This document shows, piece after piece, positions 2,210-26,063 of a stretch of DNA of 64,000 bases. Made by a program: the position numbers and the translations under genes. The stretch comes from Desulfobacterales bacterium (GTDB lineage: Bacteria > Desulfobacterota > Desulfobacteria > Desulfobacterales > JAHEIW01), in NCBI GenBank assembly GCA_030066985.1, contig JASJAN010000001.1:1-64000 (forward strand), in the 5' to 3' direction. Numbering within the stretch: position 1 is the stretch's first letter; every line of letters starts with the position of its first letter. The notes below the pieces were generated by a model. That model had not been told where the DNA came from, made no database searches, and worked only from the letters and a program-made list of their open reading frames with translations.

Positions 2210-3469
2210 CTACTTGGCGTCAATTCGCTTTTTAATGGCTTCAACCAAACCTTCAAGGGGAACGGAAACCTGGTCTTTGGTTTTCATATTCCGCAGAATA
2301 GCCTCCCCCTTTTTGAGCTCGTCGTCACCGACAATCAGAACATATCCGGCTGCCAGCCGATCGGCCCGTTTCATCTGACTTTTTAGACTCTTGCCGCTAA
2401 AATCCAGCTCAGCGCTGATGCCTTCAGCCCCTAAAGCACAAACCCACTCAAACGCCTGCAAACGGCTTTGCTCCCCCAATGCCGCCACAAAGATAACCGG
2501 TTGGCGGTAAAATTGTTTTGTCTCAAGACCGGTCAATTCCGTCAGTCTGTCAAATCCAATCGCAAAGCCGGTAGCCGGTATATCCGGTCCCCCCAGTTCA
2601 CTGACCAGCCCATCATAGCGGCCGCCGCCGGCAACCGCATTCTGGGCTCCCAGGGACGCCGTCTGGATCTCGAATGTGGTGCGCGCATAGTAATCCAGAC
2701 CGCGTACCAGGTTTTTATCCACCACAAAGGAAACACCCAATTTTTGCAGCATCTGTTGAACTTCATCAAAGTCGGCTTTGCATTCCGGATCGAGATAATC
2801 GATGATGGAAGGTGCATCCGCCAGCGCCGCCCGGCAGTCCGGAACTTTGCAGTCCAGCACGCGCAACGGGTTACGATCCTTTCGTCGCTGGCAGTTGGCG
2901 CACAGCTGGTCATTGATGGAGGTCAAAAAGTCCGATAAGGCGTCTTTATACTTAGGCCGGCATGTCGGACAGCCCAGTGAGTTAATGTGGGCTTTAACAT
3001 CAGCGACCTTCAATCGCTTAAACAAAGTGATTAAAAGATAAATCAGCTGGACATCCGCCAGCCCGGATGGGACACCGAAAATCTCAGCATTGATCTGGTA
3101 AAACTGGCGGTACCTTCCCTTCTGCGGTCGCTCTCTTCGAAACATGGGACCGATCGTGTAAAGTTTTTGGACCGGATCCTTGGCATGCAGCCGATGTTGG
3201 ATGTAAGCCCGTACAATAGAAGCCGTCGCTTCCGGGCGCAACGTAATCAGGTCGCCTTTGCGATCCGGAAAAGTGTACATTTCTTTTTCGACAATGTCAG
3301 TGTCTTCACCGATGCTTCTGGCAAACAGCTCGGTGCGCTCCATAATGGGAATACGGATCTCTTGGAAGCCAAAGTCTTCCAGAAGCTCACGTGCCACCTT
3401 CTCAATTGCCTGCCACAGCTCAATTTCGCCGGGGAGAATATCTTTAAATCCTCTGATTAACTGGATCAT
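2210..3469 (-). CDS. hisS: Histidyl-tRNA synthetase
   Basis: Class II synthetase of 419 residues that attaches histidine to tRNA-His. The sequence opens with the typical IRGFKDILPGE. It has motif 1 (LRPEATASIVRAYI), motif 2 (FRRERPQKGRYRQFYQINAE), the histidine-specific RGLDYYARTTFEI and motif 3 (ATGFAIGFDRL), followed by a C-terminal anticodon domain. Two CxxC-type pairs (GCPTC, LCANC) with further Cys residues fall in the insertion between motifs 2 and 3, as in many bacterial HisRS. The ATG at 3469 follows GAAGGA at a somewhat long distance. It is probably co-transcribed with aspS downstream, a common bacterial arrangement. Confidence 0.97.
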   Translation of the reverse strand: MIQLIRGFKDILPGEIELWQAIEKVARELLEDFGFQEIRIPIMERTELFARSIGEDTDIVEKEMYTFPDRKGDLITLRPEATASIVRAYIQHRLHAKDPVQKLYTIGPMFRRERPQKGRYRQFYQINAEIFGVPSGLADVQLIYLLITLFKRLKVADVKAHINSLGCPTCRPKYKDALSDFLTSINDQLCANCQRRKDRNPLRVLDCKVPDCRAALADAPSIIDYLDPECKADFDEVQQMLQKLGVSFVVDKNLVRGLDYYARTTFEIQTASLGAQNAVAGGGRYDGLVSELGGPDIPATGFAIGFDRLTELTGLETKQFYRQPVIFVAALGEQSRLQAFEWVCALGAEGISAELDFSGKSLKSQMKRADRLAAGYVLIVGDDELKKGEAILRNMKTKDQVSVPLEGLVEAIKKRIDAK

Positions 3470-3607
3470 TGAATGGGGTGTCCTTCACATCCGATAGGCG
3501 TTCAAAAATAGAAGGCCTGCGACGGTGTTTTTATTCTGTTTTCAAGTAAATCTGATTTTTTATCTTAATATCGCCAATTTAGTCAACCTTAATATTTTTT
3601 TTAAGAC

Positions 3608-3636
3608 TTGACACCCCAACAGTGATTGCCTAATTG
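3608..3636 (+). promoter_or_regulatory. Possible sigma70 promoter for the peptide island
   Basis: TTGACA at 3608-3613 is a perfect -35 box. With a 17-base spacer the -10 would be TAATTG, which is weak. A second AT-rich candidate (TATATT at 3676-3681) lies nearer the gene. This is the divergent hisS / S58-peptidase spacer (3470-3721). Confidence 0.3.
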
Positions 3637-3721
3637 ATTTACTTTTAAACTCAATTGGATATATATTAGTCTGACTATATTCTGGTACAAAACCATTCTT
3701 GGAAAGGAAAGGCGCATATAA

Positions 3722-4726
3722 TTGACAACTGCGGGCAAATATAACACTCTTACCGATGTGGCCGGCATCACCGTCGGCCATTACACCGACCCGGTTGCTG
3801 CCAGCGGGGTGACTGTGGTTGTCTGTACCGAGGGCGCGGTGACCGCTGTTGACGTACGCGGTTCGGCGCCCGGCACCCGGGAAACCGATCTATTGGCGCC
3901 GACCAATCTGGTTGAAAAAGCGCAGGCGGTGGTGCTCTCCGGCGGTTCGGTTTATGGTCTGGCCGCTGCAGACGGCGTTGTGCGTTGGCTGGCGAAAAAC
4001 GGTTTCGGATTCCCGCTGGATAAAGGATATGTCGCACCGATCGTCCCGGCAGCGGTATTGTATGATCTCGATCGTGGATCTGATTTTGTTCCCCCAGTTT
4101 GTGCCGAATGGGGTGAAAAAGCCTGCCAAGCCGCCGGCAGTGGCCCGGTCGCCTGCGGCTGCGTGGGCGCCGGCACCGGCGCCTGGGCAGGCAGCATCAA
4201 AGGGGGGCTGGGAACCGCCAGCGCCGTTTTGGACGCCGGCATCACGGTGGCCGCATTGGCCGCTGTCAATTCAGGCGGATCAGTCATCGATCCCGCCAGC
4301 GGGCAACCATGGGAAATAGGCCTGCAAATCGAGCAGGAATTCGACCCACAGGGAAAACGGGCCGTGAAACTGCCACCACTGCCTGCAGCCGCTGCAGCCC
4401 AGAACACCACCATTGCAGTGGTCGCCACCGATGCCAAGCTGAGCAAGGCCCAGGGTTGCAAAGTCGCCCAGATGGCCCATGACGGTATGGCGCGGGCCAT
4501 TCGACCGGCACACACGATGTTTGATGGCGATACCATTTTTTGCATGGCCACCGGCAAACAAAAGTTACCCCAAAAGCAGGGTTTTTTCAGTGCGACCCAG
4601 GCCCAGGCGGTTACCGACATCGGTCACGCTGCAGCAGACTGTTTATCAAGAGCCATTATAAGGGCCATCCTGACAGCTAAGAGTGCCGCCGGCATGACGG
4701 CATTCTGCGACCTTGATGATCGATAA
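3722..4726 (+). CDS. S58 (DmpA/P1-type) aminopeptidase
   Basis: Member of the self-processing Ntn-hydrolase family that includes DmpA (L-aminopeptidase/D-amidase) and beta-aminopeptidases; 334 residues. The N-terminus (TDVAGITVGHYTD) and the glycine-rich segments near 75-85 (VVLSGGSVYGLAAADGV) and 170-190 are typical. The expected autocleavage/nucleophile region is AQNTTIAVVATDA, with Asn228-Thr229 the likely scissile bond and Thr229 the nucleophile; assignment by family resemblance. TTG start with AAAGG 9 bases upstream. No signal peptide, so probably cytoplasmic. It is the first gene of a run with a dipeptide importer and an M20 peptidase, which suggests hydrolysis of imported short, possibly D- or beta-containing, peptides. 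The exact substrate cannot be read from sequence. Confidence 0.88.
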   Translation: MTTAGKYNTLTDVAGITVGHYTDPVAASGVTVVVCTEGAVTAVDVRGSAPGTRETDLLAPTNLVEKAQAVVLSGGSVYGLAAADGVVRWLAKNGFGFPLDKGYVAPIVPAAVLYDLDRGSDFVPPVCAEWGEKACQAAGSGPVACGCVGAGTGAWAGSIKGGLGTASAVLDAGITVAALAAVNSGGSVIDPASGQPWEIGLQIEQEFDPQGKRAVKLPPLPAAAAAQNTTIAVVATDAKLSKAQGCKVAQMAHDGMARAIRPAHTMFDGDTIFCMATGKQKLPQKQGFFSATQAQAVTDIGHAAADCLSRAIIRAILTAKSAAGMTAFCDLDDR

Positions 4727-4766
4727 ATAATGTTCATCTCATTTCAGAAAAAAGGGAGGAAAAATA

Positions 4767-6263
4767 ATGAGGAGACTGCTTTTACTTTCTCTGGCATTCG
4801 CTATCACGCTTTCAATTGCACCGGTTTGGGCAGAGGCACCCAATAAAGGCGGAAACCTGGTGCTGTGCGTGGGGGATGAGCCACCGGGGCTGGATCCGAC
4901 TGCAAGCGCTTCGGCTGCCATCGATCGGGTCGTCTTCGCCAATATCATGGAAGGACTGGTCAAAGTCGACCGCAACGGCCAATTTGTGCCCGGGCTGGCC
5001 ACCCAATGGGATGTGTCGCCGGACGGCAAAGTGTATACGTTTAAACTGCGCCAGGGGGTCAAGTTTCACAACGGAGAAGCTTTCAATGCCCAGGTCGCCA
5101 AGTGGAACCTTGAACGCGGCGCAGCACAGGACACGAAAAATGCCCATCCTGAATTTTTCCGGGTTATCGCAAATATTGAAACACCCGACAGTCAGACCCT
5201 GAAGGTCACTCTCAAAGATGTTGACGCCCTGTTTATCGTTCACATGGCCGAAGGCGATGCCGTCATGCTGCCGATGAAAGGATACGAAAATACGGCTGCC
5301 GCGCCCATCGGAACCGGGCCGTTTAAATTTGCCAAATGGACCCGGGGCGACAGCGTGGAAATGGTCAGAAACGAGAAATACTGGAACCCGGTCCTGCCCT
5401 ATCTGGACAAAGTCACCTATCGCTTCATCAAGGACCCCAGTGCGCAGGTTGCCGCTTTAAAAGCCGGTGATGTGGATCTTATCGGCTGGCTGTTTGCACC
5501 CGAACTGGCGGCAGACATCGCCAAAGACAAACGCTTTAAAGTGCTTTCGGGAGCGTCCACCTCTGAAGTCATCATGTCCACCAACAACAAAGCCAAACCC
5601 TTTGACAACAAGCTGGTGCGCCAGGCGATTGCGCTTGCCATTGACCGCCAGACGGTCATTGACCTGGTCATGGCCGGATACGGCACCGTTATCGGCTCCC
5701 ACTGGCCGCCTGTTACCCCTTACTACAAGGATATGACCGGTCGGTTTCCCTATGACCCGATAAAAGCCAAGGCCTTGCTGGCCCAGGCCGGATATCCGAA
5801 TGGTTTCTCGGCCACCATCAAGCTGCCGGCCATTTATCCCTATTCACAACGCGCAGGCGAAGTCATCGCCGACATGCTGGGTCAAATCGGGATCAAACTC
5901 AAAATCGAGATTGTTGAATGGGGCTTCTGGCTGGATCGCATTTTCAAGCAAAAAGACTTTGAGCTGTCCATGATCGGACACGCCGAAGCATGGGATATCG
6001 GCATATATGCCAATCCGGATTACTATTTCCAGTTCGATTCCCAGGAATTTCGGGATGCCTATGCCAAAGCACTCAAAGCGCCCAACGAAGCGGAAAAAGC
6101 CAAATGGTTCGGCCGCTGTCAGGAAATCGTCGCCGAGGAGGCCGTCAACGGATTTTTGTTCCTGTCACCGGCACTGTCTGCCATGAAGATCGAGTTGATG
6201 AACTGGTGGGAGAATTACCCCACAATCGCACTCGATTGCACAGAGGTGTGGTGGAAGCGGTAA
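4767..6263 (+). CDS. dppA: Dipeptide/oligopeptide-binding protein (SBP family 5)
   Basis: Periplasmic solute-binding component of a peptide/nickel-type ABC importer; 498 residues. It has a type I signal peptide (MRRLLLLSLAFAITLS, cleavage near VWA-EA at about 22-24). The SBP_bac_5 hallmarks follow: GLDPTASAS, VFANIMEGLVKVDRNG, LATQWDVSPDGKVYTFKLR and GVKFHNGEAF. The C-terminal ligand lobe includes QAIALAIDRQTVIDLVMAGYG. GGGAGGA precedes the ATG at normal spacing. It is separated from the permease genes by a 196-base gap holding a large hairpin (6327-6405), which fits the usual need for more binding protein than membrane component. The ligand is not certain; glutathione, nickel or D-dipeptides are alternatives within the family. 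Confidence 0.92.
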   Translation: MRRLLLLSLAFAITLSIAPVWAEAPNKGGNLVLCVGDEPPGLDPTASASAAIDRVVFANIMEGLVKVDRNGQFVPGLATQWDVSPDGKVYTFKLRQGVKFHNGEAFNAQVAKWNLERGAAQDTKNAHPEFFRVIANIETPDSQTLKVTLKDVDALFIVHMAEGDAVMLPMKGYENTAAAPIGTGPFKFAKWTRGDSVEMVRNEKYWNPVLPYLDKVTYRFIKDPSAQVAALKAGDVDLIGWLFAPELAADIAKDKRFKVLSGASTSEVIMSTNNKAKPFDNKLVRQAIALAIDRQTVIDLVMAGYGTVIGSHWPPVTPYYKDMTGRFPYDPIKAKALLAQAGYPNGFSATIKLPAIYPYSQRAGEVIADMLGQIGIKLKIEIVEWGFWLDRIFKQKDFELSMIGHAEAWDIGIYANPDYYFQFDSQEFRDAYAKALKAPNEAEKAKWFGRCQEIVAEEAVNGFLFLSPALSAMKIELMNWWENYPTIALDCTEVWWKR

Positions 6264-6326
6264 TCGGCACATTGTTGGAAAGCTGGGTATTATGCTAAGT
6301 ATCTCCATTCTATGCGGAAAAAATTT

Positions 6327-6405
6327 TACCACGAAGTTCACGAAGGACACGAAGCAGTAAATCTTTTTTGGTATGTCTTCGTGCATCTTTGTGTTCTTTG
6401 TGGTC
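6327..6405. repeat. Heptad-array hairpin (CACGAAG type) inside the dpp operon
   Basis: Left arm 6327-6354 is a tandem of CACGAAG-like units (ACCACGAAG TTCACGAAG GACACGAAG). Right arm 6376-6405 is its inverted degenerate copy (CTTCGTG CATCTTTGTG TTCTTTGTGG). The loop is about 20 bases. It lies between the binding-protein and permease genes. Confidence 0.75.
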
Positions 6406-6459
6406 AATACCGAAATGAAAATACATCAATAATAAAAACTGCCTCCCTGAATTAAACGC

Positions 6460-7404
6460 ATGCTCCGCTATTTGATCAAAAAGCTGCTCATCCTGCTGAT
6501 TCTGCTGTTCTTTGTCTCCATTGCGGTATTTGCGGTCCTTTTTGTGCTTCCCGGTGACCCGGCGCAGATTATTCTCGGAATCAATGCAACCCCCGAATCG
6601 CTGGCGAATCTGCGTGCTGAGCTGGGCCTGGACAAATCATTTATGGGACAATACGCCCAGTGGATGGGGAATCTTTTACTAGGCCGCAGCCACCAATCCA
6701 TTCATTATAAAATGCCCGTTTTTGAATTAATTGGCGACAGCCTGGCGGTGACCGGACCGCTGGCCCTTCTGGCCATGGTGTTCGCCCTTGTCATTTCGCT
6801 GCCTTTCGGCATCTACGCCGCGCGGCATCAAAACCAATCCGGCGACGTGACGGTCATGTTCTGCACCCAACTGGGGCTGGCTACCCCGGAATTCTGGTTT
6901 GGTATCCTGCTGACCCTGGTGTTTTCGGTCCAACTGGGCTGGTTTTCCGCCGGGGGTTTTCCGGGCTGGGGCACGGATTTCTGGGGTTCACTCAAAGCGC
7001 TATTGCTGCCCGCCTTCGCGCTGGGTGCCATCCGGGCCTCCATTCTGACTCGTCTGACCCGCTCTTCGATGCTGGAAGTTTTGCGTGAGGATTACGTACG
7101 CACGGCGCGCGCCAAAGGGCTCAAAGAACGGACCGTTGTCTACGGGCATGCCTTGCGCAACGCGCTGGTACCGGTCCTGACCATTATGGGGCTTCAGTTG
7201 GGACAGCTTCTGGCAGGGGCGATTATCATCGAAAATGTCTTTTTTCTGCCGGGTCTGGGAAGACTCGTATTCAATGCCATCGGCCAACGGGATTTACCGG
7301 TGGTGCGCGATATCGTTTTGTTTATGGCGGCAGCCGTCGTCATCATCAATTTTCTCGTCGATCTGGCCTACGCCGCGGTCGATCCGAGGATACAGCTGGA
7401 ATGA
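6460..7404 (+). CDS. dppB: Peptide ABC transporter permease (DppB-like)
   Basis: Inner-membrane permease of 314 residues with six predicted transmembrane segments. The N-terminal helix (LLILLILLFFVSIAVFAVLF) runs into the family signature VLPGDPAQIILG. The cytoplasmic EAA loop (about 210-235: EDYVRTARAKGLKERTVVYGHALRNAL) contacts the ATPases. It couples with the 7401-8225 permease, and the two reading frames overlap by four bases (ATGA), indicating translational coupling. Confidence 0.93.
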   Translation: MLRYLIKKLLILLILLFFVSIAVFAVLFVLPGDPAQIILGINATPESLANLRAELGLDKSFMGQYAQWMGNLLLGRSHQSIHYKMPVFELIGDSLAVTGPLALLAMVFALVISLPFGIYAARHQNQSGDVTVMFCTQLGLATPEFWFGILLTLVFSVQLGWFSAGGFPGWGTDFWGSLKALLLPAFALGAIRASILTRLTRSSMLEVLREDYVRTARAKGLKERTVVYGHALRNALVPVLTIMGLQLGQLLAGAIIIENVFFLPGLGRLVFNAIGQRDLPVVRDIVLFMAAAVVIINFLVDLAYAAVDPRIQLE

Positions 7405-8225
7405 AACGCTTCTTTAAAAATAAAAACTTTACCATCGGATTTATCCTGTCGCTGATTGTGGTTATTGCGGCGGTGCTCAGCCTTATCTGGACCCCTTTTG
7501 AAGCCAACCGCATGAACGCCAAACTGCGACTGCAGGGCCCATCCTGGCAACACCCGCTGGGCACAGACCAGTACGGCCGCGATACCCTTTCACGCGTGAT
7601 GGTGGGGGCGGTCAACTCGATCATCGTCGGATTGATGACAGTCGCCATCGGTTTGAGTGTTGGCGTCACATTGGGGCTGGTAGCGGCTTACTACAGCAAG
7701 TGGGTTGATGAGTCCATCATGCGTTTATCGGACTTTTTATTCGGGTTTCCGGCGGTATTGACCGCTATTTTGATCACCTCGATTCTGGGTCCGTCGATGA
7801 TCAATGCCATGCTGGCGATCGGTATTTTTTATATCCCGGTATTTGCCCGTTTGACCCGGGCAGTGGCGATGGTCATCTGGGAGCGGGAGTTTATTGTCGC
7901 CGCCCGGGCGGCCGGTATCAGTGAGTGGTCAATTGCCTGGCGCCACGTGCTGCCCAATATTATTTCGCCCTTGCTCATCCAGGGCACCATTCAGTTTGCA
8001 GTGGCTATTTTGGCCGAGGCCGGGCTCAGCTACCTTGGATTGGGAACCCAGCCCCCGCACGCCTCCTGGGGCCGAATGCTAAACGAAGCGCAAACCTATA
8101 TGTCACTGTCACCCTGGATGGCCATCTTCCCCGGATTGGCCATTGCCTGGGCCGTACTGGGCTTCAATTTGTTGGGGGACGGACTCAGGGATACGCTTGA
8201 TCCAAAAATGGTCCGAATCAGGTAG
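7401..8225 (+). CDS. dppC: Peptide ABC transporter permease (DppC-like)
   Basis: Second permease of 274 residues. The segment HPLGTDQYGRDTLSRVMVGA is the DppC/OppC signature and the EAA loop is EREFIVAARAAGISEWSIAWRHVLP at about 165-190. It ends with the typical LGFNLLGDGLRDTLDPK. Start codon overlaps the dppB stop. Together with dppB it forms the membrane pore of the importer. Confidence 0.93.
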   Translation: MKRFFKNKNFTIGFILSLIVVIAAVLSLIWTPFEANRMNAKLRLQGPSWQHPLGTDQYGRDTLSRVMVGAVNSIIVGLMTVAIGLSVGVTLGLVAAYYSKWVDESIMRLSDFLFGFPAVLTAILITSILGPSMINAMLAIGIFYIPVFARLTRAVAMVIWEREFIVAARAAGISEWSIAWRHVLPNIISPLLIQGTIQFAVAILAEAGLSYLGLGTQPPHASWGRMLNEAQTYMSLSPWMAIFPGLAIAWAVLGFNLLGDGLRDTLDPKMVRIR

Positions 8226-20523: not shown

Positions 20524-21786
20524 TTAGATACTCTCCGCAATAGATACCGTTCGATCCCCTAAAATATTCACATAGCTTCCCATTTCATTATCATACCAAC
20601 CATAAATAACCGCCTGGGTGACCGGTACCCGGATAATCGATTCTTTCAGATTGCCAAAATTTCCTTTTCCCAAACCGGGTACTTTATTTAAATCAATCGT
20701 TGCCTCGGCTGTACGGGTGTGGGTTTCGTGGCCTTCGATGGTGGCCGCAACCCGCGGCATACCGATAATATCACCGGAAACATTCTGTTTGTTGGTAAAG
20801 TATAGGTAGCCCTGGGCGTTTTCGCGGGCCGCCTGTTCAAATATGTCATTGATGGTATCCCGGGTGATAAAAGGGCCGCTCGGCTCTTCTTGTAAATTGA
20901 CTACCAGTATGATCAAAGATCCGGTCTGAACGGGTATGCGGACGGATTCAGCAATAAAGGCGATTTCAGCCATTTCCGGTATGACCAGTCTCAATGCATT
21001 GGCAGCACCGGTGGTGGTTAGAATGATATTGTTCAGGATGCTGCGATTTTTGCGAAGATCGGTCTTGCCGGTTTTCGGAAGGCGGTCCAACACCTCCTGA
21101 GATCCGGTGGCTGCATGGACGGTGGCCATCGATGCAGACATGATCTTTTTAGGACCGAAAGCATTGATCAAGGGCTTGACCATATGTGCCAAGCAGGTGG
21201 TTGTGCAGGAAGCATTTGAAATGATCCGATGACGTCTGGGGTCATAATCGTTTTCATTGATGCCCATCACAGTGGTGACGGCATCTTCGGGCGTTGAAAC
21301 ACCTTTGTTTTTTAGTTTAAACGGCGCAGAAGCAATCACCTTCTCGGCACCGGCCTCGAGATGGCCCCGAAGAGCCCCACCTTCGTGATCGGCATCCAGA
21401 GTCGGATCCAAAAATTGACCGGTGGTATCCACCACCAGCCGTACGTCATGATCGCGCCAGCCAATCTCAACCGGGTTGCGATGTGTTCTTAAAAATCGCA
21501 CTTTAACACCATCAACCATCATCGAGCCATCGTCCTCATTTAAATCTTCTATAACCGGTTGACCGCGATGCCCGTGAAGATAGCCGTGTAGCCATCCGTA
21601 GGTTGAATCTCGCTCAAAATAATGGGCGATGTCTTCGAGGCTTGAACCCGGCTGTCTTCCGATATTGACAATAATCTCATCGAAAAATCTTCGGCCAATG
21701 TGGTGCCAGAGGGTCAATTTACCAATGCGCCCAAATCCGTTGACACCCAACTTACTGCCACTTGAAGATAAATCCGCCTTGGCCAT
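20524..21786 (-). CDS. gap: Glyceraldehyde-3-phosphate dehydrogenase, long atypical form
   Basis: 420 residues against about 335 for standard GAPDH, with extensions in the nucleotide-binding half. Catalytic Cys194 lies in NASCTTTCLAHM (standard ASCTTNCLAP), and the catalytic His is in MATVHAATGSQ. The C-terminus WYDNEMGSYVNILGDR is canonical. After GVNGFGRIGK the second strand reads EIIVNIGRQPG, so the Asp that normally binds the adenosine ribose of NAD (VND) is replaced. That suggests altered NAD/NADP preference (inference). Its ATG follows the stop of the giant dikinase-like gene after two bases, so the two are surely co-transcribed. Confidence 0.93.
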   Translation of the reverse strand: MAKADLSSSGSKLGVNGFGRIGKLTLWHHIGRRFFDEIIVNIGRQPGSSLEDIAHYFERDSTYGWLHGYLHGHRGQPVIEDLNEDDGSMMVDGVKVRFLRTHRNPVEIGWRDHDVRLVVDTTGQFLDPTLDADHEGGALRGHLEAGAEKVIASAPFKLKNKGVSTPEDAVTTVMGINENDYDPRRHRIISNASCTTTCLAHMVKPLINAFGPKKIMSASMATVHAATGSQEVLDRLPKTGKTDLRKNRSILNNIILTTTGAANALRLVIPEMAEIAFIAESVRIPVQTGSLIILVVNLQEEPSGPFITRDTINDIFEQAARENAQGYLYFTNKQNVSGDIIGMPRVAATIEGHETHTRTAEATIDLNKVPGLGKGNFGNLKESIIRVPVTQAVIYGWYDNEMGSYVNILGDRTVSIAESI

Positions 21787-21788
21787 GT

Positions 21789-24700
21789 CTAATTGGCTCC
21801 TTTCCTGGTTTCCTTGACCTTGATTAAACCCTGATATACCGGTCCTTCGTGCCCGTCAATGCTGATGTGCTCGCCGGATTTTATTTTAAGTTGATTAAAC
21901 TCACAGTATTTTTCCTTTTCATTACATTCCAGATTGGTACAACTGACCACACAGGTTTTACCCAGCCGGTGCGCGATGACAGCTGCGTGAGAGGTCAGCC
22001 CCCCGCGAGCGGTCAACAGCCCATCAGCCGCATGGATTTCCCGGATATCGTCGGGGACAGTATCGTTGCGGGCAAGAATCAAATTCGCACCGGGATCCAT
22101 CACCCGCCATTCTTCGATATCTTTTAGGGTAAACACCAGACGCCCGCTCATGGCTCCCCCGCTGACGCCGACACCATGTCCCAGATACAATCTCTGGGGA
22201 TCTTGCTCAAAATCAAAGGTCAGCACTTGCTTTCTTTCACGAATGGCCATATCGCGGGTTTGCAGCAGATACAAATCATCGGGTGACGACCCTTCGAAGG
22301 TAAACTCGATTTCCTGCGGGCTCCAGCCTCTTTCATCGATCAGGTCATGGGCCCAGTCATTCAATGCCTGATAAATTTCCGGAAAATGGGTCTCCATGGT
22401 AACATCGGTTTCCCGCATTTCGATTTCCTGTTGGAAGATCGATATGGGCATGGTTTTAACCAGTCCAGAGACGACATCTTCACCTTGATTACCGATGGTA
22501 AAATCGCCCCATAGTTTCAGGGTATCGCCGGACCAGCGGGGATTATGGGTGAAAACAACACCGGTGCCGGACTGCTGGGATATATTGCCATAGACCATAG
22601 CCTGAACGGTAACTGCTGTGCCCCAATCCTCTGATATTCCGATTATCCGTCGATAGGCCATGGCCCGTGATGATTCCCATGACGCCAGAACCCCTTTGAT
22701 GGCCAGATGGAGCTGCTCGTAGGGATCTTCCACCACTTCAATACCGGCCTCCTGGATCAACTGCTTGTATGTCAGGGCAACTTCACGCATTTGCTTTCCG
22801 GTGAAGTCTCTCTTGAGGGGAATTCCCAGCCGTTGTTTGGATTCGTTGATGATGGCATCAAAGTCATCGCGCTTCAAGCCATACGCCATTCCGTAGCATT
22901 GCAAATATCGGCGGTAATTGTCCCAGGCAAACCAGGCATTACCGGATGTTGCGGCGATGCCTTCTGTAATCTCCTCATTGTTGCCGACATCCAGCAGGGT
23001 GTCCATCATGCCCGGTTGGGATATGGAGGAACCGCTGCGCACGGATAGCAGCAGCGGGTTTTGTCGATCACCGAAAATCTTACCGGTCACTTTTTCCAGG
23101 GCTGAGATATTGTCGATAATTTTTTCTTTAAAATTTTGCTCTGCCGGCGGGTAGCTCTCAATAATCTCACGGCAACGAAATACTTCGGTGGTGATGATAA
23201 AACCCGGTGGTATCGGATAGCCAAAACTTTTCAGCCGGACCATGTTTAGTCCTTTGTTGCCCAGATAGATGATGCCGGTTAAACGCGCCAGGGAAGAGTC
23301 AATCGGCGTGATGGCATTTTGGGGATCATACAGAAGCAAGCGCTGAAGCTTATCTTTAGGCAATTTGTAGGATTGTTGAAAAAGGGTGCTTAAAATCCGG
23401 CTTAAAAACAGATCGAGTTGCTGCAGCCCCAGACTCAGGGCGATACGGTCCCGGAAGAAAATCTCGGAAACACGCAATTGCAGGTTTTCGCTATCAATGG
23501 TTTCACCTGAAGGTAGAAATTTCGGCAACAGTGTGCCCAGCGGTGTCTGGGCAAAAATCCGGGTTAGGTTCTGGCCATGAATATTATTAAAATAATCATT
23601 GACCATGTTCTTGACGGCCTGGGCAAATCCTTTAAAAATATCCAGATATTGCGTTAAGGTAAAGCCTTTGACCTCCAGGGAATGGGCTAAAAATTCAAGC
23701 TGGCGTTCGAATTCCTTGGATGAAATGCCGTCCAGCTTCAAGGCTCTGTCAAACAATCGCAACAAACTGTATATTTGATGAAAAGTGGCCTTGGTAATCA
23801 GACTCAGGTCAATATTTTCAATCAGCTGCTCAAAAAGAACATTGACCAGTGACTCGATCCGAAAGGTAAGCCCCAGGCAGTCAAATTTCATTTCATGATA
23901 ACTGCCGTACATTGACGGTATATCGATGGTGATATGTCTTTTTTTATAAATGTCCTGGCGGATTTCATATGTTTCTTCAGATAAAATGACGGCCTGTAAT
24001 TTTTCCATATACTCAAGCAGCATAAACAACCGCTTGTGCAAATCCGGTTCGACAAAGGCCAGCTCGAGCCGATTTAAATCCGGTAACGCCTCTGTTCGCA
24101 ATTGGGCAAGGTAGGCATCCAGCTCAATTAAATCGAAATTATATTTCTGGTTCAGTATCTTATAGAATGCTGCCGCAAGTTCCACACGCTCCCGGTCGAG
24201 CGCGGGAACGCCTTTGATGGTTTCCAACCAGTGGGCGATGTTTTTCTCACTTATCGCCAGCAGATCATTTGGATTGCGAATACCCTTTTCCTTTAGATGG
24301 CCCATTATTTGAAAAACACCATCAATGAACAGTCCTTGAGTTTCGATCTGATCATAAATAGCAGGGGGGATATAAGGTTCCAGACGGGTTTTATCGCGTG
24401 ATTGCCAAAAATAGAGAACCGCCTCCATCAGATCGATGATGCGATTGCTGCTTTCCACATGACTTTGCTTTCTGAGATAGTGGATGAGAATGTCCCGGCG
24501 CTGAGAAATTTCATCAATGCGTGTCGAAATATCCCTTAGCCGGCCCTCAGCTCCAATATCATTGAAATATACCGGAAACAGGCGCGTGAGCTGTTTGGCA
24601 AGGTTATAAACAGGACCGATGCCACTGTTTAACAATTGGGTAATATCGCGAGGAAAAAGATCAATATCCTTGATAAATACACCGCAAAGGGACAGATGAA

Positions 24701-25985
24701 TAATCAGGGCGGAAAGCAGGCGAATGGATCGTTTGGGGTCTAATTTGATCAGCTCCAGCCAGGTGCGAATGTTTAAAATATGGGTCTTGTTAACCTGTAT
24801 CTGCCAATTGTTGTCAACGCCCTGAATATTCGGTGCGGCAAAGCCTAAATCAATGACCGAATCGATGAAAAAATTGATGAGGTCGATATCGTCGGTTTTG
24901 TAGACGCCTTGTCCCATGTTGAGCACACAGTTCAGCGTCGTGGCCGGATACATACTGGCACGCTCTTTCAGGATGGAAAAGGTTTTCTCGATCAGATTTT
25001 GAATGTCACGGTAATTTTCATTTTCGATAATCCAGCCCAGGGTCTGGTTAATATCGCGTAAGGTTTGTCGATGAATAAGCGATAGACCGGTGATGCTCAT
25101 TATATGAAATAAAAATATGAGCTTAAGATGCCGACCGCGCCCGTTTCCGCCGGCCTTGTTTAACAGATGCCGCGGAATGTGGCGATACTGCTCGACAATC
25201 TGATTAAACCCGGGAAGTTTCAACAGCGCCTTCAGTGTTTTGTCAGAATCAAGACGTTGATGATGCATCATCTGCTTAAGTTGCTGGTTCCAGTCTACCA
25301 GCTGTGTGTGCGATATGCTTTTAAAAAATGGCAAATACGTGCTGCGCTGGTCCCTTTCAGACATTTCCCCTGCAAACCAGGCTTGCGGGTCTCTTTCGCT
25401 CAACCAGTAGGCATAGGTAACGCGATAAAATTTAATCAACAGGCGGTTGATGGTGTTAAAAACACCATCTGATTTCGGCACGCAGTTCAGGAAGGTCTCA
25501 GCCAAGCGATCGATTTGATAGTAGCTACGCGCAAAGAGGGCAAAAATATCATCGGGTAAATCGCTGATACGCGAAAAAGCGCTGTCGATCGGCGGCAAAA
25601 ATATCTCTATTTCCGAGCCTGAATCCTTGAGGACCTTTTGCAAAAACAGCTGCAGATTATCAATGGCATCGATTTTGACGTTCATTTCAACCTCGGAATC
25701 TATGGCATCAAAGAAAATATCGATTAGCAGCTGCGCTGCTGCCGGTCCTTTGGGATGTTTTTTTATCAGATGAAAATATTCGAGGGAATACTTGCGAGTT
25801 TCGATGACAATGAAGCGCCAGTTCTTATACGGATGAGACAGCTCCTTTAACAGCGTGTTTAGCCCCTCCATCAACCCGTAATATTGGGACAAGACTTCCT
25901 GAAGGGTTGCATATTTTTCATCAATGGCGACATCGACATGATAGTCGGCCAAATTCACTTCAAGTGCTTTGGATTTAACTTTCAC
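21789..25985 (-). CDS. Giant PPDK-like ATP-grasp/phosphohistidine protein lacking the PEP barrel
   Basis: About 1398 residues from a GTG at 25985; a TTG at 26021 would add 12, and the start is uncertain. Residues ~1-900 are an apparently all-helical region I do not recognise. From ~908 it matches the PPDK/PEP-synthase nucleotide-binding domain: LGNKGLNMVRLKSFGYPIPPGF, then LLSVRSGSSISQPGMMDTLLDVG and GTGVVFTHNP. The swivelling domain follows, with phosphohistidine His1333 in GGLTSHAAVIAHRLGK. The protein ends 65 residues later, so the C-terminal PEP/pyruvate TIM barrel is absent. It should autophosphorylate with ATP, but the acceptor is unknown. It is transcribed directly before an atypical GAPDH. 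Acceptor binding by the N-terminal region is inference. Confidence 0.85.
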   Translation of the reverse strand: MKVKSKALEVNLADYHVDVAIDEKYATLQEVLSQYYGLMEGLNTLLKELSHPYKNWRFIVIETRKYSLEYFHLIKKHPKGPAAAQLLIDIFFDAIDSEVEMNVKIDAIDNLQLFLQKVLKDSGSEIEIFLPPIDSAFSRISDLPDDIFALFARSYYQIDRLAETFLNCVPKSDGVFNTINRLLIKFYRVTYAYWLSERDPQAWFAGEMSERDQRSTYLPFFKSISHTQLVDWNQQLKQMMHHQRLDSDKTLKALLKLPGFNQIVEQYRHIPRHLLNKAGGNGRGRHLKLIFLFHIMSITGLSLIHRQTLRDINQTLGWIIENENYRDIQNLIEKTFSILKERASMYPATTLNCVLNMGQGVYKTDDIDLINFFIDSVIDLGFAAPNIQGVDNNWQIQVNKTHILNIRTWLELIKLDPKRSIRLLSALIIHLSLCGVFIKDIDLFPRDITQLLNSGIGPVYNLAKQLTRLFPVYFNDIGAEGRLRDISTRIDEISQRRDILIHYLRKQSHVESSNRIIDLMEAVLYFWQSRDKTRLEPYIPPAIYDQIETQGLFIDGVFQIMGHLKEKGIRNPNDLLAISEKNIAHWLETIKGVPALDRERVELAAAFYKILNQKYNFDLIELDAYLAQLRTEALPDLNRLELAFVEPDLHKRLFMLLEYMEKLQAVILSEETYEIRQDIYKKRHITIDIPSMYGSYHEMKFDCLGLTFRIESLVNVLFEQLIENIDLSLITKATFHQIYSLLRLFDRALKLDGISSKEFERQLEFLAHSLEVKGFTLTQYLDIFKGFAQAVKNMVNDYFNNIHGQNLTRIFAQTPLGTLLPKFLPSGETIDSENLQLRVSEIFFRDRIALSLGLQQLDLFLSRILSTLFQQSYKLPKDKLQRLLLYDPQNAITPIDSSLARLTGIIYLGNKGLNMVRLKSFGYPIPPGFIITTEVFRCREIIESYPPAEQNFKEKIIDNISALEKVTGKIFGDRQNPLLLSVRSGSSISQPGMMDTLLDVGNNEEITEGIAATSGNAWFAWDNYRRYLQCYGMAYGLKRDDFDAIINESKQRLGIPLKRDFTGKQMREVALTYKQLIQEAGIEVVEDPYEQLHLAIKGVLASWESSRAMAYRRIIGISEDWGTAVTVQAMVYGNISQQSGTGVVFTHNPRWSGDTLKLWGDFTIGNQGEDVVSGLVKTMPISIFQQEIEMRETDVTMETHFPEIYQALNDWAHDLIDERGWSPQEIEFTFEGSSPDDLYLLQTRDMAIRERKQVLTFDFEQDPQRLYLGHGVGVSGGAMSGRLVFTLKDIEEWRVMDPGANLILARNDTVPDDIREIHAADGLLTARGGLTSHAAVIAHRLGKTCVVSCTNLECNEKEKYCEFNQLKIKSGEHISIDGHEGPVYQGLIKVKETRKGAN

Positions 25986-26063
25986 TGCTGCTCGTCTTTC
26001 CTTAAAAAAGCAGAAAATCAAACATAAATGGTTTCACTTACAGGCTATCAAGTATCAGCCGCT

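Follow-up and report, generated by a model that had tools for sequence, protein, structure and literature searches.

The closest described counterpart of the system reported here is VadK (Rv1127c) of mycobacteria, a descendant of pyruvate phosphate dikinase (PPDK) without the phosphoenolpyruvate (PEP)/pyruvate barrel. VadK is reported to autophosphorylate on a histidine, to co-precipitate with metabolic enzymes encoded nearby, and to tune the flux of these partners, which are enzymes of the methylcitrate cycle (PMC13400623). In rifampin phosphotransferase (PMC4844700) and the two-component dikinase HpeHI (PMC12167813), an ATP-grasp domain and a swiveling phosphohistidine domain work with a small-molecule acceptor domain instead of the barrel. 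Here, we analyzed a gene pair in a 64,000-nucleotide stretch of a Desulfobacterales bacterium (contig JASJAN010000001.1, positions 1 to 64,000; the window). One gene encodes a giant PPDK-like protein without the barrel (BIG), and the other encodes a long form of glyceraldehyde-3-phosphate dehydrogenase (GAPDH-L; gene gapL). Throughout the Desulfobacterota sampled, the two genes were found almost exclusively together.

Like VadK, BIG has PPDK ATP-binding and phosphohistidine domains, no pyruvate/PEP domain, and a genomic link to metabolic enzymes. Unlike BIG, VadK is about 50 kDa in size, is without a large N-terminal solenoid, and is partnered by methylcitrate-cycle enzymes rather than GAPDH. 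Autophosphorylation was measured for VadK and is predicted for BIG, and the likeness of the two is drawn from the published description of VadK. Compared with rifampin phosphotransferase and HpeHI, BIG is distinguished by an N-terminal solenoid joined to a PPDK-type dikinase half. As in PPDK (TIGR01828; PDB 1kbl), the ATP-grasp domain of BIG is followed by the phosphohistidine domain, the active-site positions are kept, and PPDK gave the best structural matches to the C-terminal model. In contrast to PPDK, BIG is without the PEP/pyruvate barrel, scores 410.2 bits against an equivalog cut-off of 843.45 bits, and has about 900 additional residues in front. GAPDH-L resembles type I GAPDH (TIGR01534) in keeping the catalytic Cys, the catalytic His, and most of the substrate-phosphate residues compared, but differs in its deep separate clade, several insertions, altered cofactor loop, and a score of 325 bits, below the equivalog cut-off of 367.2 bits. 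In the part of the open-access literature searched, nothing was recognized as the BIG and GAPDH-L pair.

Co-occurrence of BIG and GAPDH-L

The distribution of both genes was determined in 395 genomes of one phylum, the Desulfobacterota, with a profile of the solenoid (A1) for BIG and a profile (A3, E < 1e-100) for GAPDH-L. BIG was present in 115 genomes and GAPDH-L in 116, and 114 genomes held both. Two genomes with distant partial matches (G312 and G386; profile positions 391-535) were removed before the count; if they are kept, the figure is 114/117. After the GAPDH-L set, the next A3 matches, fragments aside, were at about 3e-57 or weaker and of canonical length. The three one-sided genomes are all incomplete: G113 has BIG only (76% complete), whereas G005 (79%, with a 262-residue frame) and G078 (62%) have GAPDH-L only. 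With a second profile (A2, residues 560-1395), BIG was again found in G113 and nothing was found in G005. Both G005 and G078 are members of genus g19, and neither gene was found in the third genome of that genus, G042 (67% complete); in G078 and G042, A2 matched the dikinase half alone, in open reading frames (ORFs) of 729-939 residues. In six mixed families (f12, f20, f21, f44, f59, and f63), 21 of 21 BIG-negative members were also without GAPDH-L.

BIG and gapL stand side by side in 87 of the 115 BIG genomes; gapL is immediately downstream in the same orientation in 71 of them and immediately downstream in convergent orientation in 16. They are non-adjacent in 27 genomes, on another contig in 23 and far apart on the same contig in 4. 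One of these 4 is G309, where BIG runs off the contig end and GAPDH-L lies at the contig start, and the pair may be adjacent across the origin of a circle. The pairing is far beyond chance, and with 114 shared and 3 one-sided genomes, the connection with GAPDH suggested in the first-pass annotation proved much stronger than adjacency. As a comparison trait, aprA was found in 84/115 BIG genomes and 79/280 others; a strict tie of BIG to sulfate reduction was rejected, with 31 of the 115 having no aprA match at E ≤ 1e-100. A separate contig scan with six peptide patterns gave 58 loci, in 44 of which GAPDH-L stands beside BIG. All 58 carry Desulfobacterota-type or unspecific delta- or proteobacterial titles, and the scan says little about other phyla.

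Architecture of the two proteins

BIG was identified by ORF calling, Pfam, TIGRFAM, and PDB matches, and homologues at 21789..25985 on the minus strand, where it starts with a GTG at 25985 and comprises 1,398 residues. An alternative in-frame TTG start at 26021 yields 1,410 residues (ORF 21789-26021, minus), and residue numbers refer to this form unless marked GTG. Pfam matched PPDK_N (E 9.1e-31) and the PEP-utilizers mobile domain (E 2.2e-17), and residues 919-1405 aligned with residues 17 to 514 of PPDK chains in the PDB. The ATP-grasp domain, assigned from Pfam and the PPDK structures, spans residues 919-1265 (22227..23267, minus). The swiveling phosphohistidine domain, assigned from Pfam, PDB matches, and the alignment, spans residues 1283-1405 (21807..22175, minus) and contains the motif GGLTSHAA. 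The predicted phosphohistidine, H1345 (H1333 from the GTG), is encoded at 21987..21989 (minus) according to the PDB match, the alignment, and a script check. BIG scores only 80 bits to PEP synthase, so it is far closer to the PPDK type. A Pfam scan gave no match to the PEP-utilizers_C barrel (PF02896) in BIG at E ≤ 1. In an alignment of 60 BIG proteins of 1,350-1,600 residues, K923, R995, E1239, Q1254, R1256, T1343, S1344, and H1345 were kept in 60/60 and E1237 in 59/60; these are the catalytic positions of PPDK. A model of residues 560-1410 had a predicted local distance difference test score (pLDDT) of 71.3, poorer than that of the solenoid model, and its top Foldseek matches were PPDK.

The N-terminal part, residues 13-905 (23307..25985, minus), is a predicted all-helical solenoid. 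No Pfam family exceeded its cut-off in this part of the window BIG, no PDB chain matched a 41-row profile of the solenoid at E ≤ 10, and no plasmid sequence was matched by the solenoid in tblastn at E ≤ 0.01. Weak Pfam matches in 3 of the 41 members of profile A1 (best, Viral_Hsp90 at 6.9e-5) were judged to be chance. The AlphaFold model, built on an alignment of 41 sequences including the window BIG, was nearly all helix, with a mean pLDDT of 85.4 and a predicted TM score (pTM) of 0.80. Foldseek and VIA-align returned weak matches to importins, CAND1, other HEAT-type proteins, and designed helical repeats. The model thus has a broad likeness to helical-repeat proteins that bind other proteins, and with such weak, generic matches we call it HEAT-like and no more than that. 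Two conserved patches were seen over the 60 BIG proteins, patch 1 at residues 414-524 (24450..24782, minus) and patch 2 at residues 691-731 (23829..23951, minus), the latter also examined in the AlphaFold model. Both are conserved to about the degree of the catalytic domains and are rich in near-invariant charged residues (R/K/H). Residues 692-704 of patch 2 are conserved, yet have a pLDDT below 50 in the model, and from these two features they might form a loop that becomes ordered when a ligand or partner binds.

GAPDH-L, a 420-residue protein defined by ORF call, Pfam, TIGRFAM, profile, and tree, is encoded at 20524..21786 (minus), and the script check placed its ATG two bases from the BIG stop codon. 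The catalytic Cys194 (21205..21207, minus) is invariant in the 31 aligned long rows. Compared with Escherichia coli GapA, the catalytic Cys and His are retained, as are the phosphate-binding positions compared, except one that varies between Gly and Asn across the long rows. None of the 31 rows has Asp at the aligned cofactor column, where Asp is the NAD-selecting residue of canonical GAPDH; Arg44 in the same loop (21655..21657, minus) is invariant in all 31, suggesting NADP as the cofactor. Among several conserved insertions, a GAPDH-L-specific one near the C terminus (residues 350-388; 20623..20739, minus, from the alignment) holds invariant H356 and T359 and near-invariant R358. In the tree, a branch with support of 100/100 separates the 31 long rows from 15 canonical ones, although the bootstrap was not fully settled; judged from this tree, GAPDH-L is a separate deep clade.

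These results agree with the description in the first-pass annotation of a protein of about 1,400 residues that ends 65 residues after His1333 (GTG), a distance that the script check reproduced from the window coordinates. They likewise agree with its account of a missing C-terminal PEP/pyruvate domain, about 900 unrecognized helical residues in front, and an atypical 420-residue GAPDH two bases away. In the structure prediction and fold search of the N-terminal part that it had proposed, a helical HEAT-like model was obtained, with no recognizable enzyme domain or barrel.

GAPDH-L is the sole PF00044 match in G028, G065, and G227, where it presumably fills the role of GAPDH. A second GAPDH-L copy in G101 lies within a RuBisCO-phosphoribulokinase-gapL-pgk cluster, which points to a reductive direction for the enzyme. 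This cluster (L123, G101:C1:500000-512000) has the RuBisCO large subunit, phosphoribulokinase, gapL, and pgk in a row at 3043-7985 and is separated by about 1.27 Mb on the same contig from a gap-BIG-gapL-pgk-tpi cluster. The RuBisCO large subunit is form III-like, just below the TIGR03326 cut-off, and the copies in the cluster are 100% (GAPDH-L) and 99.5% (phosphoglycerate kinase [PGK]) identical to the other G101 copies.

Proposed role of BIG and competing explanations

Our favored explanation, to which we give a probability of about 45%, is that BIG is a PPDK-derived phosphohistidine phosphotransferase with a solenoid in the place of the barrel, most likely controlling GAPDH-L. We infer a mechanism that runs from autophosphorylation, reaction direction, and cofactor to docking and acceptor. 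ATP, probably together with Pi as in PPDK, would phosphorylate H1345 and yield AMP, after which the swiveling domain would deliver the phosphate to an acceptor bound by the alpha-solenoid, which stands where PPDK has its PEP/pyruvate barrel. The usual partner would be GAPDH-L, probably an NADP-type enzyme of a reductive (gluconeogenic or CO2-fixing) triose-phosphate branch. BIG would dock on GAPDH-L, and perhaps also on PGK or triose-phosphate isomerase (TPI), and would thereby switch or gate GAPDH-L activity in response to the ATP/AMP/PPi state, either through transfer of the phosphate or through binding that depends on phosphorylation. As a first guess, the target site would be H356 and T359 in the GAPDH-L insertion. 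We lean toward a protein as the acceptor rather than a metabolite because the acceptor side resembles a solenoid, the partnership with GAPDH-L is so exclusive, and VadK offers a precedent. The first-pass annotation had proposed a dikinase with a novel acceptor, perhaps a protein or a triose-level metabolite linked to GAPDH. A dikinase half without a barrel is present as it claimed, and its acceptor may be novel; the solenoid leans to protein binding, and a simple triose reaction replacing PGK is not needed, with PGK found in 69/70 genomes tested.

Several observations weigh against control of GAPDH-L by BIG. The resemblance of the solenoid to protein-binding folds is generic: the query-normalized TM score was at most 0.18 among the Foldseek matches listed, and the best VIA-align match reached Z 9.2 over 186 of 893 residues. 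Its charged patches might just as well bind a small molecule. No long GAPDH adjoins BIG in 14 of the 58 scan loci. Six of these (L017, L037, L045, L046, L061, and L065) are at or near a contig edge and L066 is half a gene, but L057 and L062-L064, which are not at an edge, have canonical GAPDH only, and L041, L050, and L053 have neither GAPDH although the sequence continues. Genus g19, with GAPDH-L and without BIG, is a possible true exception. Apparent frame breaks, either errors or real, occur in BIG in G065 and G301, and BIG was read as two ORFs through such a break at L111:4933-9100 (G065) and L112:4188-8457. In G065, BIG is broken although GAPDH-L is the only GAPDH, which counts against a strict need for BIG.

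The strongest competitor is a metabolite dikinase. The solenoid patches would bind a triose-level acid or a relative of it, such as 3-phosphoglycerate, BIG would convert it to an activated phosphate such as 1,3-bisphosphoglycerate at the cost of ATP to AMP, and GAPDH-L would reduce the product and so pull the uphill step. Both patches are about as conserved as the catalytic domains and carry near-invariant R/K/H residues, and this idea therefore stays alive. It also agrees with the gapL, pgk, tpiA gene order in some lineages, with the pairing of BIG with one oxidoreductase, and with the use of other small-molecule acceptors by rifampin phosphotransferase and HpeHI. However, PGK, which makes 1,3-bisphosphoglycerate, is nearly always present and stands beside BIG in several genomes, so BIG does not simply replace it, and BIG as a plain PGK replacement was not supported. 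Moreover, Pfam, the PDB profile search, Foldseek, and VIA-align recognized no known substrate-binding fold in residues 13-905, tests that exclude none. On balance, we consider a metabolite dikinase unlikely, though a serious contender. Energy salvage is more doubtful still. GAPDH-L in reverse would make 1,3-bisphosphoglycerate, and BIG would use this product, together with the AMP and PPi released during sulfate activation and reduction, to form ATP. The PPDK-type rather than PEP-synthase-type domain, the enrichment of aprA among BIG genomes, and the run of the cluster into sulfate-activation and reduction genes in one family would suit it, whereas the BIG genomes without aprA, the GAPDH-L cofactor loop, and the RuBisCO-linked copy, the last two suggesting a reductive direction, make it improbable.

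Two further ideas have very little going for them by our estimate. BIG might be a PPDK that borrows its barrel from another protein, since 11 of 12 BIG genomes examined contain PF02896 ORFs. These ORFs are at least 590 residues long except for two in the draft genome G290 (327 and 315 residues), possibly pieces of one gene. The twelfth genome, G014 (a single contig, 99% complete), has BIG and GAPDH-L but no PF02896 match at E ≤ 0.001 and thus appears to lack the barrels that PPDK, PEP synthase, and Enzyme I of the phosphotransferase system (PTS) carry. A borrowed barrel therefore seems unneeded, and we disfavor this idea. Alternatively, BIG might be an ATP-driven stand-in for Enzyme I that feeds the EIIA-type genes found upstream, with sigma-54, S30AE, and RapZ genes, in several deep lineages. 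In G028 (L099) and G065 (L111), however, no such EIIA gene lies near BIG, and BIG is kept although the only PF02896 ORFs (827 and 815 residues) are PEP-synthase-like by length. In addition, 7 of the 12 genomes already hold a PF02896 ORF of Enzyme-I length (590-617 residues), identified by length alone. This substitute role was likewise disfavored, and it appears as remote to us as the borrowed barrel.

Gene neighborhoods and biological meaning

Neighboring genes were named partly by Pfam and otherwise by similarity. In Desulfobacterales, the genes around the pair differ by lineage, and the window has genes of the carbon monoxide dehydrogenase/acetyl-CoA synthase type on one side. Some deeper lineages have, in whole or in part, the series sigma-54, S30AE, PTS EIIA-2, RapZ, EIIA-man, acetyltransferase, canonical gap, BIG, gapL, pgk, tpiA, and secG. 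The complete gap-BIG-gapL-pgk-tpiA order was seen in four genomes, at loci L100, L110, L116, and L058 (also numbered L117). L114 has BIG-gapL-gap-pgk-tpiA, and L103 and L113 have BIG-gapL-gap-pgk up to the end of the stretch. The order is gap-BIG-pgk-tpiA, with no gapL at that place, in L057 and L062-L064, and in L122 gapL is apart from BIG and still near pgk. Of the 74 loci examined, 11 contain PGK and 10 contain TPI. In G290 and G365, of one family, the cluster continues straight into ATP sulfurylase (sat), aprB, and aprA; these three genes directly follow gap-BIG-gapL-pgk-tpi-secG in L116 and L117, from about 12.8 kb onward.

Further observations concern relatives and surroundings of BIG. 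A DUF3786 gene lies just upstream of BIG in L043 (3783-4412) and 13 other loci, many of them in Desulfobacterales; the corresponding gap in the window holds no ORF of at least 100 residues on that strand. In CP070746.1 (L048 and L066), BIG residues 622-1410 stand beside GAPDH-L and the overlapping residues 9-832 stand elsewhere, about 5.5 Mb apart. The window's own genome (G000) has eight PPDK_N-matching ORFs with frames of 391 to 1,414 residues, one of them PPDK-length, on contig 58. Distant relatives with a long N-terminal part were seen at L097:1873-6330 (1,485 residues, where Pfam recognizes PPDK_N alone) and L098:1234-5865 (1,543 residues). They have GGRGAHAA instead of GGLTSHAA, their genomes show canonical-level GAPDH scores only, and they may represent a further family of giants without a barrel, paired with a different partner.

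Taken together as a widespread two-protein system of Desulfobacterota, BIG and GAPDH-L may couple phosphohistidine-based ATP cleavage to the reductive GAPDH step, either by activating 3-phosphoglycerate in a new AMP-forming reaction and channeling the product to GAPDH-L or by acting as a dedicated protein-phosphorylating switch of gluconeogenesis; for this broader statement we see even odds. The new result is the link between the two genes across genomes. GAPDH is among the best-known enzymes of central metabolism, and a deep-branching form of it, present in 29% of the sampled Desulfobacterota, is hardly ever seen without its giant dikinase-like partner. Should the two proteins work as a single system, they would represent a new way to drive or control gluconeogenesis or CO2 fixation among sulfate-reducing bacteria and their relatives and would be another case, beside VadK, of a PPDK turned from a metabolic enzyme to another use. 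The pairing hints at an ATP-driven step in central metabolism, regulatory or catalytic, that has so far gone unrecognized.

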